NCBI GenBank assembly: GCA_034190875.2
Contig: CM067354.1
Span: forward strand, 38,400,239-38,464,238
Direction of reading: 5' to 3'
DNA: 64,000 nucleotides
Origin: Urechis unicinctus
Lineage: Eukaryota > Annelida > Polychaeta > Xenopneusta > Urechidae
Position numbers and translations under genes: made by a program. The notes below the pieces were generated by a model. The model was not told the DNA's origin. It made no database searches and saw nothing but the letters and a program-made list of their open reading frames with translations. Positions 7,413 through 29,300 of this stretch are shown piece after piece. Numbering within the stretch: the stretch's first letter is position 1; every line of letters begins with the position of its first letter.

Positions 7413-10400
7413 CGGACCAGAACGCTAACTATGACGCCAAGCGTGTTCACCTGGACAACTTATTCCGTATGGTCAACTACTGCGAGAACCGCGCCGACTG
7501 CCGCAGGTCTCAACAGATGATGTACTTTGGCGAGATCTTCGACAAGCAGCGATGCTCGGAGATGCCTGAGGCTATCTGTGACAATTGCTCGACGGATGTG
7601 AGTGTCTGGCTAGGGTCAGGACTGTCATTTAGGGTCAGAGGGACCATTGGTTGTCAGATCTTTCACTTTCACTTTCACACATTCACACATACATCATTCA
7701 TTCACTCACACATACACATTCATTCATTCTCTCACTCATACACTCATTCACACATGCTAACGCATACACTCACTAACACACTCACATATTCATTCACTCA
7801 CTCACTCATATACTCACTAACTCACTCACATATTCACTCACTCACTTTCACTATCTCACTCATTCATTCACTCACACATACACTCATTCACTCACTCACT
7901 CACACATACACTCACTCATACATTCATTCATTCAATCACACATACTTATTAACTCACAAATACTCATTCACCCATTCACACACACTTTCACTCATACACT
8001 GCCTCACATATGCACGCACTCACTCACTCACGCTCGCTTCCATACTCTCGCTGACTCGTTCACCCACAATGACACACCCACTTTCAGTGGCAGACGGTGA
8101 CCTGTCTGACTTGGTGTGTTTACAGGAGAAGTTTGAGGAGATGGATGCTACTGAGATAGTGAAGACGATCGTGAAGGGGATCCGGGAGATCAACCTGACC
8201 TCCACAGCGCGCAACCAGTACACCCTCCTCCACTTCATAGAGGTCTTCAAAGGTAATACCTTACCTAGCTCCCTAGCTCTGTGGAGGTAACACTAGTCGA
8301 GAGCCACACTTCCTTTGTTGCTGCTGTTCATGCCATAATGCTGTGGACATGGTTAACTGCCCCAGCATTTTATCAAGCAGGTATCTGAAATGTGTATATG
8401 GCTGTCTGTATTAATTTAAGCAGCTATTTGAAGTGTTAATATGCCTGTCTGTATTCCAGCGTATCATTACTATATAAGGGAAATAGTAGTATGCTATTGT
8501 GCAACATATGGTTCAACATGACACATCTGAAGGACAATTCACAGAAAGCTGTTCTATTGTTATCTGAAGCTAGCCTATTCCATGTTGCACACACCAAACG
8601 TCTAAGAATGAATTTGTCCCTGGTTTTGACACCATGTTGGCCAAGTCCATCACCAGTTGGGGTGTCTACTGGGATCACGGGTGTATGATAGGTGATAGTA
8701 TAACTCAACCCCTCCCCAGCATGCTGTGATGCAGGATCATCTGTGATGGTGTGATCCCCATGCTGTGATCTAGGATCATTTGTGATGGTGGGATCCCCAT
8801 GATGTGATCCAGGATCATTTGTGATGGTGTGATCCCCATGATGTGATCCAGGATCATCTGTGCATGATGTAGTGTTTGTGATGGTGTGATCCCCTTGCTG
8901 TGATGCAGGACCATCTGTGCATGATGTAGTGTTTGTGATGGTGTGATCCCCATGCTGTGATGCAGGACCATCTGTGCATGATGTAGTGTTTGTGATGGTG
9001 TGATCCCCATGCTGTGATCCAGGCTCAGGCAACAAGAAGATCATGGAGTGCGGCCATGACAGGAGCATCATGTACAACGCTGCTGTCCGAGTCAACCTGA
9101 CTCGCACTGACTGTGAGCGCCTCTTCCGGCAGCTCGTCATCGATGGTATCATACACGAGGACTTGAAGATCACCGCCCACGACCACGCTGTGTGTTATGT
9201 CAAGCTGGGTAAACGTGCAGAGCCGGTGCTGCAGAACAAGTTCAAGGTGAAGTCTACTAGCAGCCAGATGGGGACATCACCGACTGCTCTGGGTTCACTC
9301 TGATCTTGGACATACCATGGACATATCCTTCTAGTTTGTAATCAATATAAAGAGAGATTTTGTTCTTTTGGCAGGTGAAGTTCTTCCGTCAGGGCAGCAA
9401 GAAAACTGCTTCTGTGCAGCAAGAAGCTGATGACACAGTGCGTCGTCATGGTGATGTTGTCAGGAAGCAGATCCGTGATGAGTGTTACCAGACTCTCATC
9501 GCCCTGGCCAAAGACATCAGTAGGTCATGTTGTCCTAGCCAAAGACATCAGTAGGTCATGTTGTCCTAGCCAAAGACATCAGTAAGTCATGTTGTCCTGG
9601 CCAAAGACATCAGTAGGTCATGTTGTCCTAGTTGGCCAAAAGCATCAGTAGGTCATGTTGTCCTAGTTGGCCAAAGACATCAGTAGGTCATGTTGTCCTA
9701 GTTGGCCAAAGACATCAGTAGGTCATGTTGTCCTAGTTGGCCAAAGACACCAGTAGGTCATGTTGTCCTAGTTGGCCAAGGACATCAATAGGTCATGTTG
9801 TCCTAGCCAAAGACATCAGTAAGTCATGTTGTCCTAGTTGGCCAAGGACATCAGTAGGTCATGTTGTCCTATCCAAAGACATCAGCAGGTCATGTTGTCC
9901 TAGCCAAAGACATCAGTAGGTCATGTTGTCCTAGTTCAGCGGGTTGGACATCTGAGGGCCTAGTGGACTCACAGTCTAATGGTGTCACTGGCTGATGGCT
10001 TTGGTAGTGACAATCTCCAGCTACTGTTGGACTGTATATGGTGGATTGTGTGTGGTGATTGGCAGGTCGTATGGAGAAGAAGACAAGCTACACACACATC
10101 TTTGACAGTAAGACGTTACAGCAGCTGGCCGACCAGCTACCTCTCACACTGGAGGAGATGCTCCGAGTCGACGGAGTCTCTCAGGTCAAGCTCGAGAAAT
10201 ATGGCAACCAGTTCCTCACTGTCACCACTGAGTACATGACCAAAGTCTTATGTAAGTCACTGAGTACATGACCAAAGTCTTATGTAAGTTACTGAGTACA
10301 TGACCAAAGTCTTATGTAAGTCACTGAGTACATGACCAAAGTCCTATGTAAGTCACTGAGTACATGACCAAAGTCCTATGTAAGTCACTGAGTACATGAC

Positions 10401-26300: not shown

Positions 26301-29300
26301 CAATGATGTACCATTAGGTGGTGGTGTGTGTGTGTATCAATGATGTACCATTAGGTGGTGTGTGTTTTCCGGTTCAGTAATGATGTAGCCATGAGGTGGT
26401 TTGTGTTGTCTGGTTCAGTAATGATGTAGCCATGAGGGTGTGTGTGTTGCCTGGTTCAGTAATGATGTAGCCATGAGGGTGTGTGTGTTGTCCGGTTCAG
26501 TAATGATGTAGCCATGAGGGTGTGTGTGTTGTCCGGTTCAGTAATGATGAAGCCGTGAGGTGGTGTGTGTTGTCCGGTTCAGTAATGATGTAGCCGTGAG
26601 GTGGTGTGTGTTGTCCGGTTCAGTAATGATGTAGCCGTGAGGTGGTGGTGTGTTGTCCGGTTCAGTAATGATGTAGCCATGAGGTGGTGTGTGTTGTCCG
26701 GTTCAGTAATGATGTAGCCATGAGGTGGTTTGTGTTGTCCGGTTCTGTAATGATGTAGCCATGAGGTGGTGTGTGTTGTCCGGTTCAGTAATGATGTAGC
26801 CATGAGGTGGTGTGTGTTGTCCGGTTCAGTAATGATGTAGCCATGAGGTGGTGTGTGTTGTCCGGTACAGTAAGGTGCAGAATGACGAGAGGATGTCCGC
26901 CTACAAAGACTTCTGTAAAAGCATGGAGTCTAGGGATCTCAAATCGTGCCTCATCAATGACCTCAGAGTAGGTGTACTAGGAGTATAATCAATAGTGTCA
27001 AGTTCAGATTTGATCCCAAGAGGATGCTCTGCTTTTATTGCTCATTGATTCCTGATAGGAGATTACCTGGTTTCCTCAATAGTTGCTGTGTGTGTGTAGG
27101 TATGTCAAGAGGATGATGTCCGCCTCTTTACCTATCTCATTCCAGATATCTACACACATGTGAGTCCACACCCAAGTCAATATAGTAAAGGAGTTTATTT
27201 CCACATTTGACTGGCAGGTAAATGACGGTTGACAGAAATATGTGACTGCATATGATTAACATGATGGTGTTGTGTTTGTGTGTAGTTTCCTAACGTGGCC
27301 ATAGGCAACTCTGAGCTGTTACATCTCATAGTATCCTGTATAGACAGTTCTCAGGTTGGTTCCCGCTGCTTATGATAACACCAGCTTGCAAAAGTAATTA
27401 AGAAACCTGAGTAAAAGCATGTTGCTTTGTTTGTGTTTACAGTTACAAGATTTGATATGTGAAGCTCTTCAGGGTCACCTCATCATGTTCAGGAAGGATT
27501 CATTCATCTCTCTCCTCAGTCAGTACAGTCTCAATCAGCCGAGCTCTTAATCCCATGTCCTTGCACATGATAGATTGAATGACAGAGTATTGCGTTGTCA
27601 AGACAGCTCTGTATTAAAAATGAAATTATTGATCACAATATCTTGTTTGTATTGAGCCTTGTTTGTCTCACAGCTTCCATATAAGATTTTGACGATTTTC
27701 TGGACTGACAGACAGTCTAATGAGCATACTGTGATGTCATTTGTGTTTCAGATGCTAGTTTTTCATGGGAGACGATTGAGCAGTTCTTTCTCTGGCAGCT
27801 TATCAGCGCACACAACATTCCTATTGAGTATATCATGCCTATACTACCCAAGCTTGACTTCTCCTGTAAGTCGACTTGATGTTTGCATTTAGCAAGGACT
27901 TTGACCTCATCTGAGTGACATTCATATGGAATATGATATATATATATATATATATATATATATATATATATATATATATATATATATATATATATATATA
28001 TATATATATATATATATATATATATATATATATATATATATATATCTCTATATATATATGACCACAAGTCCTGATTGTCATTTTTATTATATTATACGGT
28101 ATTTTTATTGATTAACCCCATTTGCATGTGTGATCTGGCAGTGCACGCTGAAGCCCTGACCAGTACTATGATCATGTTGAAACAAGAAAGGTAACTCACT
28201 CCTGTTAACACCTCATCAGTTGCATACCAGACCATTCTTTATGCTGTTGGAATTGTTAATTTATAACAACCATTCATCTTTGATAACAAGTGCTTTAAGC
28301 TAGTCTTGGATATGTGTTCAATGTGTTCTGAGTTGGTTTTTTCTTTTATCCAATGCGGTTTGATATGTAACTGTTAGTTATTGTTCATTTGGCCATCAGT
28401 GAATGTGTATTGTGTTCAGTCCCAGTGCCGAGCTGCTTCGACCTTTACTGTGTCGCGCCTGTAAGAAGAAGGACCACTTTACAGTGTCAGTGCTCAAGTA
28501 CTGGGCGCAGGAGTACGAAGACAAGCTGGCTGAGCTGCTTCTTACTCAGCTCAACAAATGTAACACCCCCAGCAGGAAACGTCACAGGTGGGGTCTCTAT
28601 CGTCGGGGGTGATGTTGTGAATCACACCAAGCATTGATGTAGATTTTGCATATTGAAATGTGCGTTTGTGTATGTGCATGTGTGTGTATTTATGTATGTG
28701 TGTGTGTGTGTGTAAGGTTTGGGGTGCTTTGTGCTGAATTAATATGCATAAACTAGTGTGGGTATTAGTAATTTAACATTATATAATGTATGCATGGATA
28801 TGATTGAGTGTGTGGGTGGGGGTAATGGCGGGTGTATACTGTATTCGTGATTGGTGGGATTTGTACCATGTGACGCAGGTTAGAGAAAGGCAGCATAAGT
28901 GGTAAGTCACGAGAGAAAGATCAGCCTACTGTGGAACAGATCCTCTCACACCTCGACCACATGCGACAAACGTGCCGCAACATACAGTGTATGTATTCTC
29001 GACTCCTTCGTGAGGGATGAGGTCTCAGTCAATATCACCCAAGTTGTAATATAAATGACATTGCTACCACATGTAAATTGCCTGTTTATACCTACAGTAC
29101 TTTCATGCTCTGTACATGACGCGGTACTTGATGTGTGTTGTGTGGGTGTTTGTGACAGTTTTAAACACAGAGGTCATGCAGCAAGCTCTCCAGCAGCTAC
29201 AGAACTCCTGTACAGATGCTCAGAAAGCCAAGTCAGTTATCATCATCATGGCTTCTTTGATGAATAATTGTACATTTAATGTACAAATCTATGAAAAAAT

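Follow-up and report, generated by a model that had tools for sequence, protein, structure and literature searches.

Results

The window, that is, the whole stretch of 64,000 nucleotides that was analysed, carries BLM, NARS1, INTS3 and introns of UBAP2L (Table 1) and belongs to a genome of 1.19 Gb. The models of BLM, NARS1 and INTS3 have reading frames without internal stops. An Rfam scan and a tRNA scan of the window found nothing. Tandem arrays were called by TRF, and five of them were found to span an exon-intron junction.

Table 1. Genes and tandem arrays of the window.
Feature	Position	Strand	Description
BLM-like RecQ helicase, part with RecQ zinc-binding, RQC and HRDC domains	7413..11675	+	8 exons
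BLM intron 2 acceptor array	8720..9023	+	39-bp units over 8720-8870 and 57-bp units over 8818-9023; the last copy carries the true acceptor, exon start 9023
BLM intron 4 donor array	9505..9936	+	35-bp unit, 31 bp in some copies; 13 copies, the first with the true donor after 9519
BLM intron 5 donor array	10226..10627	+	32-bp unit of 26 nt exon plus GTAAGT; 12 copies, the first with the true donor after 10251
NARS1 (cytoplasmic asparaginyl-tRNA synthetase)	12500..19041	-	17 exons
NARS1 intron 13 donor array	13825..14393	-	22-bp unit; exon end 14383 (minus strand) is the first of 23 core copies
INTS3 (Integrator subunit 3)	20318..29899	+	32 exons
INTS3 intron 21 acceptor array	26184..26873	+	41-bp unit (26339-26873) after related 35-bp units; exon start 26871 is the last of 13 core copies
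UBAP2L intron 19 minisatellite	35262..36319	-	47 bp x 23; gaps of 119 bp to donor and 33 bp to acceptor; reaches no junction
UBAP2L intron 18 minisatellite	37591..38466	-	29 bp x 31; gaps of 126 bp to donor and 946 bp to acceptor; reaches no junction

A previous sequence-only reading had described five arrays with a splice site within the unit, distributed over three unrelated genes and both strands. TRF and the gene models agree with this description, and the positions given there match the TRF calls within about 100 bp. The arrays include 1 (BLM intron 2), 15 (BLM intron 4), 26 (BLM intron 5), 11 (NARS1) and 3 (INTS3) exon bases, and the junction core is present in 6, 13, 12, 23 and 13 copies, respectively. 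The same reading placed the functional site in the outermost unit. In all five arrays the outermost copy is indeed the junction supported by the reading frame, and homology supports four of the five: alignments to solved BLM, NARS1 and INTS3 chains cross these junctions with a nearby gap of at most one residue. The donor of BLM intron 5 lies about 5 residues past the end of the BLM alignment and is supported by frame and splice signals only. The two UBAP2L arrays, which had been set apart as having no splice site in the unit, end 33-946 bp from the junctions. Chance does not account for tandem arrays of such length and regularity. Of note, the last coding exon of BLM has an internal array with a unit of 18 bp, and a TCAC-rich array is also present in BLM intron 1.

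As an independent sample we used 17 myosin loci (188,726 bases, 52 arrays), which represent one family and not a random sample of the genome; one of 18 loci, C15:24834609, was left out. Exons in this sample were predicted, some of them backed by a domain profile. When genes were left out in turn, the predictor recovered 54 of 80 known exons with at least one right end, with 4 false exons. We found eight further junction-spanning arrays in these genes, whose units contain as much as 40 nt of coding exon. Two more candidates, C6:29801265-29801469 and C14:17516055-17516111, were kept off this list; the exon of the former does not appear to be coding, and it still enters the density test at cut-off 15. 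For the array at C13:20514901 we used a unit of 43 bp, judged by eye, in place of the 129 bp reported by TRF. Together with the window this makes 13 junction-spanning arrays, seven at donors and six at acceptors, with 1-40 exon nt per unit. In several donor units the exon makes up most of the length and the intron contributes just a few bases (26+6, 39+4 and 40+7, exon plus intron). Unit length is a multiple of three in 3 of the 13 arrays (BLM intron 2, C13:8655051 and C16:4348013), which is about the chance level, and there is no frame constraint on it. The muscle myosin of this genome gives its top scores against chains that we take to be those of scallop and squid, which tends to argue against a cephalochordate host. 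Searches of the genome for mollusc haemocyanin, GFP and the annelid erythrocruorin linker gave no match, and neither did the control genomes, so these negatives do not demonstrate absence; a hemerythrin family search was likewise without a match. COX1 was not matched either, and the searched sequences thus seem to include no mitochondrial contig.

Most spare copies retain a potential splice site. Across the 13 arrays, 107 of 121 decoys keep the GT or AG, and 80 of these 107 score at least as high as the site in use. Of the 59 canonical decoys in the five window arrays 42 were tested, and use of any of them would lead to a premature stop. The GT or AG positions of decoys differ from the used copy as often as other unit positions do (18/242 vs 288/3262, P = 0.55). 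Spare sites have been neither eliminated nor preferentially retained. In 12 of 13 arrays, copies become less identical to the one at the exon with distance; this polarity was set aside as evidence, since control arrays show the same fall at 33 of 53 ends.

Intronic minisatellites are abundant in this genome and introns are short. The overlap with junctions was compared with random placement. As the null we placed the initial unit uniformly in collapsed introns; base coverage, also considered, was discarded since long arrays carry most of its weight. In the window, 5 of 7 arrays lie on junctions where 2.2 are expected (P = 0.021), or 5 of 8 if the TCAC-rich array is included (P = 0.036). The window was singled out for its junction arrays, and this enrichment is nominal. 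In the myosin sample there is no excess: 8 of 44 arrays were observed vs 13.7 expected at an exon-score cut-off of 12 and 10.7 at 15, and 8 of 42 vs 9.0 at the strictest cut-off, 20. Sample and window combined at cut-off 15 give 13 of 51 vs 12.9 expected (P = 0.55). The observed count is the curated list of eight, and the test dropped 8 of the 52 sample arrays (10 at cut-off 20), namely those that were not flanked on both sides by exons within 4 kb. Missed exons lengthen introns and bias the test towards enrichment; false exons have the opposite effect. The comparison of arrays and splice sites with random placement thus yields a nominal excess in the window and none in the sample.

A local-density test, which left aside units shorter than 15 bp and exons with over 60% of their length inside an array, gave a similar picture. 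At cut-off 20 the sample has 8 overlaps vs 18 arrays with a gap of 0-49 bp to the junction (null share 0.44, P(>=8) = 0.94); adding the window gives 13 of 32 (P(>=13) = 0.71). The sample counts are 9 of 29 at cut-off 15 and 7 of 20 at cut-off 30. Per base, junction-spanning arrays show no higher density than those whose end falls 0-49 bp from a junction. Array ends become sparser with distance, with 18 at 0-49 bp, 6 at 50-99 bp and 3 at 100-149 bp. We tentatively ascribe this thinning to short introns and to the counting of the nearest array only, and it could also mean crowding towards exons. Altogether, junction-spanning arrays occupy 5 of 152 junctions in the window and 8 of 626 in the sample.

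We also compared the repeat units with each other and searched the genome with three of the arrays; the genome search skips simple repeats. Each BLM donor array finds only its own place, and the NARS1 array finds itself and one weak match (71%) on another contig. Among pairs of units, 14 of 78 score above the 5% level of base-shuffled units, with GT-rich pairs in the lead.

Discussion

In this study, we describe 13 minisatellites whose repeat unit contains an exon-intron junction. We consider it probable that they were born like any other minisatellite, with splicing acting as the filter. Short tandem duplications, typically of about 20-60 bp, would appear and grow in introns all over this genome, and a sizeable share of them would straddle an exon edge because introns are short. 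Such a duplication would put spare copies of the exon end and its splice site into the intron. It may be tolerated while the spliceosome uses the exon-proximal copy, that is, the first donor or the last acceptor, because the protein is then unchanged; the spare copies would be free to expand, contract and drift. In this scheme the copies would be made by slippage or unequal exchange, and only the outer site would be used in splicing. The anatomy of the arrays, their recurrence in other genes and a rate no higher than uniform placement in the sample are seen in the data.

The sequence-only reading had concluded that the arrays must stem from a recurring process at exon ends, a conclusion that gains no support from the 17 myosin loci, where no excess of overlap was found. 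A local process of this kind, such as replication or repair trouble at transcribed exon-intron borders, would preferentially create arrays at junctions. The nominal enrichment in the window, the donor units made mostly of exon and the thinning of array ends away from exons speak for it. Nevertheless, neither the placement test in the sample nor the density per base next to junctions bears it out, and we regard such a process as unlikely. It is also very improbable that selection maintains the arrays for a regulatory role of their spare sites in gene expression, for instance by unproductive splicing with a premature stop as its outcome. The stops created by all tested window decoys and the many decoys with an intact GT or AG would fit this idea; however, these dinucleotides are no better conserved than the rest of the unit, the affected genes are unrelated, and the array rate fits neutral placement.

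Two further readings question what the arrays are. If the junctions were misplaced, the true splice sites would lie elsewhere and the arrays would be ordinary intronic repeats. The junctions were placed from DNA, through frames and homology, and the BLM intron 5 donor falls just outside the homologous part. Yet the frames of BLM, NARS1 and INTS3 are intact, homology spans four of the five junctions and every tested window decoy breaks the protein, which makes misplacement extremely improbable. Finally, a mobile or shared repeat could have been inserted at several splice sites, as the similarity among some GT-rich units and the single match of the NARS1 array on another contig might suggest. 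Against this, the two BLM donor arrays match only themselves, and the exon part of each unit is the coding sequence of the local gene. There is next to no chance that this reading is right, and we consider it largely refuted already. This agrees with the earlier claim that the arrays are not one spreading repeat, as searches with the two BLM donor arrays and the NARS1 array gave no sign of spread.

The arrays match a kind known from amphioxus. According to a report on amphioxus (PMC3087553), mirages are minisatellites over exon-intron boundaries, found in Adh3 and in the globins BflGb6 and BflGb9. Many of their copies, but not all, keep the AG/GT signals, regular mRNA splicing is undisturbed, and their length is unstable between haplotypes or cells. 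The likeness suspected in the sequence-only reading holds as a resemblance: in both cases boundary copies lie in tandem at donor and acceptor ends of unrelated genes, and many retain their splice signals. The match is marginal for the BLM intron 2 and INTS3 acceptor arrays, with only 1 and 3 exon nt. Unlike the cephalochordate mirages, the present arrays lie in a probable lophotrochozoan genome, apparently not that of amphioxus. Moreover, splicing and length instability were examined in amphioxus, whereas our data are the DNA of one assembly and a rate compared with random placement.

Repeats at exon-intron boundaries are known from human genes too. A report on genes in human segmental duplications (PMC2812944) describes boundary minisatellites as variable tandem repeats with units of about 30 bp and activated cryptic splice sites, and discusses whether recent paralogs gain introns in this way. 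These are also tandem units at boundaries; in the present genes, which are conserved, the spare copies sit within introns that already exist. Similarly, in intron gain by tandem duplication in potato, the segment that was duplicated spans an intron-exon boundary and brings splicing signals with it, but one duplication gives a new intron there, while many copies sit inside an existing one here. Ordinary intronic minisatellites resemble the arrays in unit length (head-to-tail, about 10-100 bp), copy number and abundance in the same introns, and differ in that the unit here includes a splice site and, mostly, coding sequence. We met no boundary-spanning repeats from a lophotrochozoan in the literature searched, which comprised partial texts and few subscription journals.

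We put forward tentatively, as possible though not to be counted on, the joint claim that this probable lophotrochozoan carries junction minisatellites at about 1-3% of exon borders and that splicing, at donors and acceptors alike, picks the exon-proximal site in the presence of as many as 22 decoys, of which as many as 11 equal or exceed it in strength. If true, splicing must follow an exon-anchored rule that takes precedence over local site strength, and this rule would permit exon ends to be recycled into introns genome-wide. Extrapolating from the rates in the window and the sample, repeated splice sites could be present at thousands of exon borders if the rate holds across the genome. Nature would then have set up an experiment on spliceosomal choice between identical sites; introns would grow at the expense of copied coding sequence, and automatic gene annotation could easily be misled. 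The amphioxus phenomenon, too, would then seem to follow from the abundance of minisatellites in introns and not to be peculiar to that lineage.

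Results

The window carries a BLM-like RecQ gene, NARS1, INTS3, and UBAP2L, for which our hand-built models comprise 80 exons; the 76 introns have a median length of 170 bp. The BLM, NARS1, and INTS3 models are free of internal stops and match solved chains bearing those names. By combining TRF calls with these models, we located array ends relative to exon-intron junctions. In each of five arrays the outermost copy is the modelled splice site (see table), so that the sequence-only reading, which had described five arrays with a splice site in the unit and the functional site outermost, stands. 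It also holds for the two UBAP2L arrays said to lack this property, as both end before reaching either junction. The unit of the BLM intron 5 array joins 26 nt of coding exon to GTAAGT and is present in 12 copies. The two acceptor arrays of the window, nearly exon-free, repeat the intron end more than the junction as a whole.

Junction-spanning arrays in the window and in the myosin sample (C, contig)
Type	Location	Exon sequence	Remark
Acceptor	BLM intron 2	reaches 1 nt into exon	TRF + model
Donor	BLM intron 4	reaches 15 nt into exon	TRF + model
Donor	BLM intron 5	reaches 26 nt into exon	TRF + model
Donor	NARS1 intron 13	reaches 11 nt into exon	TRF + model
Acceptor	INTS3 intron 21	reaches 3 nt into exon	TRF + model
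Donor	C7:20024816-20025168	33 nt in 49-bp unit	
Donor	C13:20514901-20515279	39 nt in ~43-bp unit	TRF period 129
Donor	C16:4344975-4345221	23 nt in 32-bp unit	
Donor	C14:17514237-17514572	40 nt in 47-bp unit	
Acceptor	C7:20716281-20716841	18 nt in 43-bp unit	
Acceptor	C13:8655051-8655308	18 nt in 42-bp unit	
Acceptor	C16:4348013-4348113	10 nt in 21-bp unit	
Acceptor	C8:58794710-58795111	15 nt in 31-bp unit	

The NARS1 junction aligns without gaps (ELNP|TFKPP against ELNPNFQPP) and that of INTS3 with one gap (11 protein letters against LRASKAAA-GK). The junctions of BLM introns 2 and 4 lie within the homology alignment; the intron 5 donor lies about 5 residues beyond its end and is supported by reading frame and splice signals. 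At 11461-11540, in the final coding exon of BLM, lies an 18-bp repeat of about 4 copies, rich in glycine, serine, and arginine. The first exon of this gene in the window is zinc-binding, and no helicase-core exon was noticed in 1-7412; a long intron and a truncated gene are both possible. In UBAP2L, exon 12 shows, at 41972-41991, a frame break of one base relative to its neighbours, which could stem from an assembly error or represent an allele.

Spare splice-site copies (decoys) are abundant within the arrays. We tested 42 of the 59 canonical decoys of the five window arrays, and all 42 lead to a stop ahead of the normal protein end. Of the 121 decoys in the 13 arrays (window plus sample), 107 retain the dinucleotide; under a matrix derived from the window's own introns, 80 of these 107 equal or exceed the modelled used site in score. 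Decoys are neither purged nor specially retained, because mismatches to the used copy are as frequent at their dinucleotides as in the remainder of the unit (18/242 versus 288/3262).

In the window, five of seven intronic minisatellites span a junction, whereas 2.2 are expected when the first duplicated unit is placed uniformly in the intron and the array collapsed (P = 0.021; P = 0.036 with an eighth, TCAC-rich array counted). Since the window had been selected for this feature, we checked the rate outside it. A search by domain returned 101 matches to myosin-head exons at 18 loci; our sample covers 17 of these loci in 20 stretches plus one 3.3-kb piece (188,726 bases). TRF (period at least 9, copies at least 2.8, score at least 100) called 52 arrays there, occupying 8.2% of bases. 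Training on the window gave a small model for exon prediction, and part of the sample exons it predicted are backed by domain matches; at score 20, leaving one gene out at a time, 54 of its predictions were correct at one end or both and 4 were false, for 80 known exons. Eight sample arrays, four at donors and four at acceptors, clearly span junctions, and therefore the phenomenon recurs in the genome. A single myosin gene (C16:4342500-4352400) holds 10 minisatellites in 9.9 kb, two of them junction-spanning. In a muscle myosin gene (C6:25852782-25863511), five alternative-looking head-exon copies lie in a row. Muscle myosin scored 632 bits with 1dfk, 630 with 3i5f, 589 with Myosin-7, 566 with 3jbh, and 525 with 5w1a, which we take to be from scallop, squid, human, tarantula, and fly, respectively.

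Discussion

The sequence-only reading held that a recurring local process, such as replication slippage or recombination at exon ends, must have produced the arrays. Our sample does not bear this out. Of 44 sample arrays, 8 overlap a junction against 13.7 (exon-score cut-off 12) or 10.7 (cut-off 15) expected under uniform placement, and 8 of 42 do so against 9.0 at cut-off 20. With the window included, random placement at cut-off 15 predicts 12.9 overlaps and 13 of 51 are seen (P = 0.55). A local-density test, which is independent of intron length and compares overlaps with arrays 0-49 bp from a junction, concurs at cut-off 20: 8 overlaps versus 18 such arrays in the sample, and 13 of 32 overlapping with the window added (null share 0.44). 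Neither test shows an excess of arrays across exon ends. The mild deficit at cut-off 12 (P = 0.018) could reflect selection or false exons. Arrays might also crowd toward exons, as array ends become rarer farther from the junction (18, 6, and 3 in successive 50-bp bins of the density test), but such thinning could be produced by short introns and by counting the nearest array.

Spread as a mobile repeat was likewise considered. Genome-wide searches with the two BLM donor arrays, in a search that skips simple repeats, matched only themselves, and that with the NARS1 array recovered, besides the array itself, a single match at 71% identity, in agreement with the earlier view that the arrays did not spread as one mobile element. 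Of 78 unit pairs, 14 are more alike than the 5% level set by base-shuffled units, GT-rich pairs leading; the likeness would amount to weak shared composition at most. The window also contains a dispersed repeat (6137-6559 and 49666-50159), which matches in two pieces, at 83% and 91% identity, on opposite strands 43 kb apart, with a further match of about 6034-6184 to 18794-18940 (74%). Long tracts of (AT)n, with roughly 51 to 64 copies, lie at 529-651, 1151-1253, and 27931-28059.

A paper on amphioxus globins describes tandem exon-intron boundary copies, termed mirages, at both intron ends in several amphioxus genes, with normal splicing, unstable length, and a mechanism its authors call unclear (PMC3087553). 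In human genes, variable minisatellites at exon-intron boundaries, possibly forming new introns, are described in another study (PMC2812944). The suggested amphioxus link is sustained for anatomy, namely boundary copies at both intron ends, which the mirages have in common with the arrays described here, the latter known from the sequence of one assembly. Because this anatomy matches, our arrays appear to belong with the already known boundary-spanning repeats. The Urechis unicinctus assembly comprises 1,190,315,542 bases in 926 contigs (the 10 examined measure 44-81 Mb). For amphioxus, published callable genomes measure 334-499 Mb and make up about 34-51% of the diploid genome, so that a haploid set has roughly half a gigabase. 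A search for GFP-family exons gave none in the assembly, nor did any control give a hit. Together with the myosin scores, these data point to a probable lophotrochozoan host and make a cephalochordate unlikely.

The likeliest origin of the arrays is small tandem duplications at any place in these introns, made through slippage or unequal exchange. Those inside coding exons would presumably be lost unless in frame, as is the 18-bp unit in the last BLM exon. Junction-crossing duplications would survive because the exon-proximal site, judging from the intact frames, stays in use, and junction hits would be common in this genome because its introns are short.
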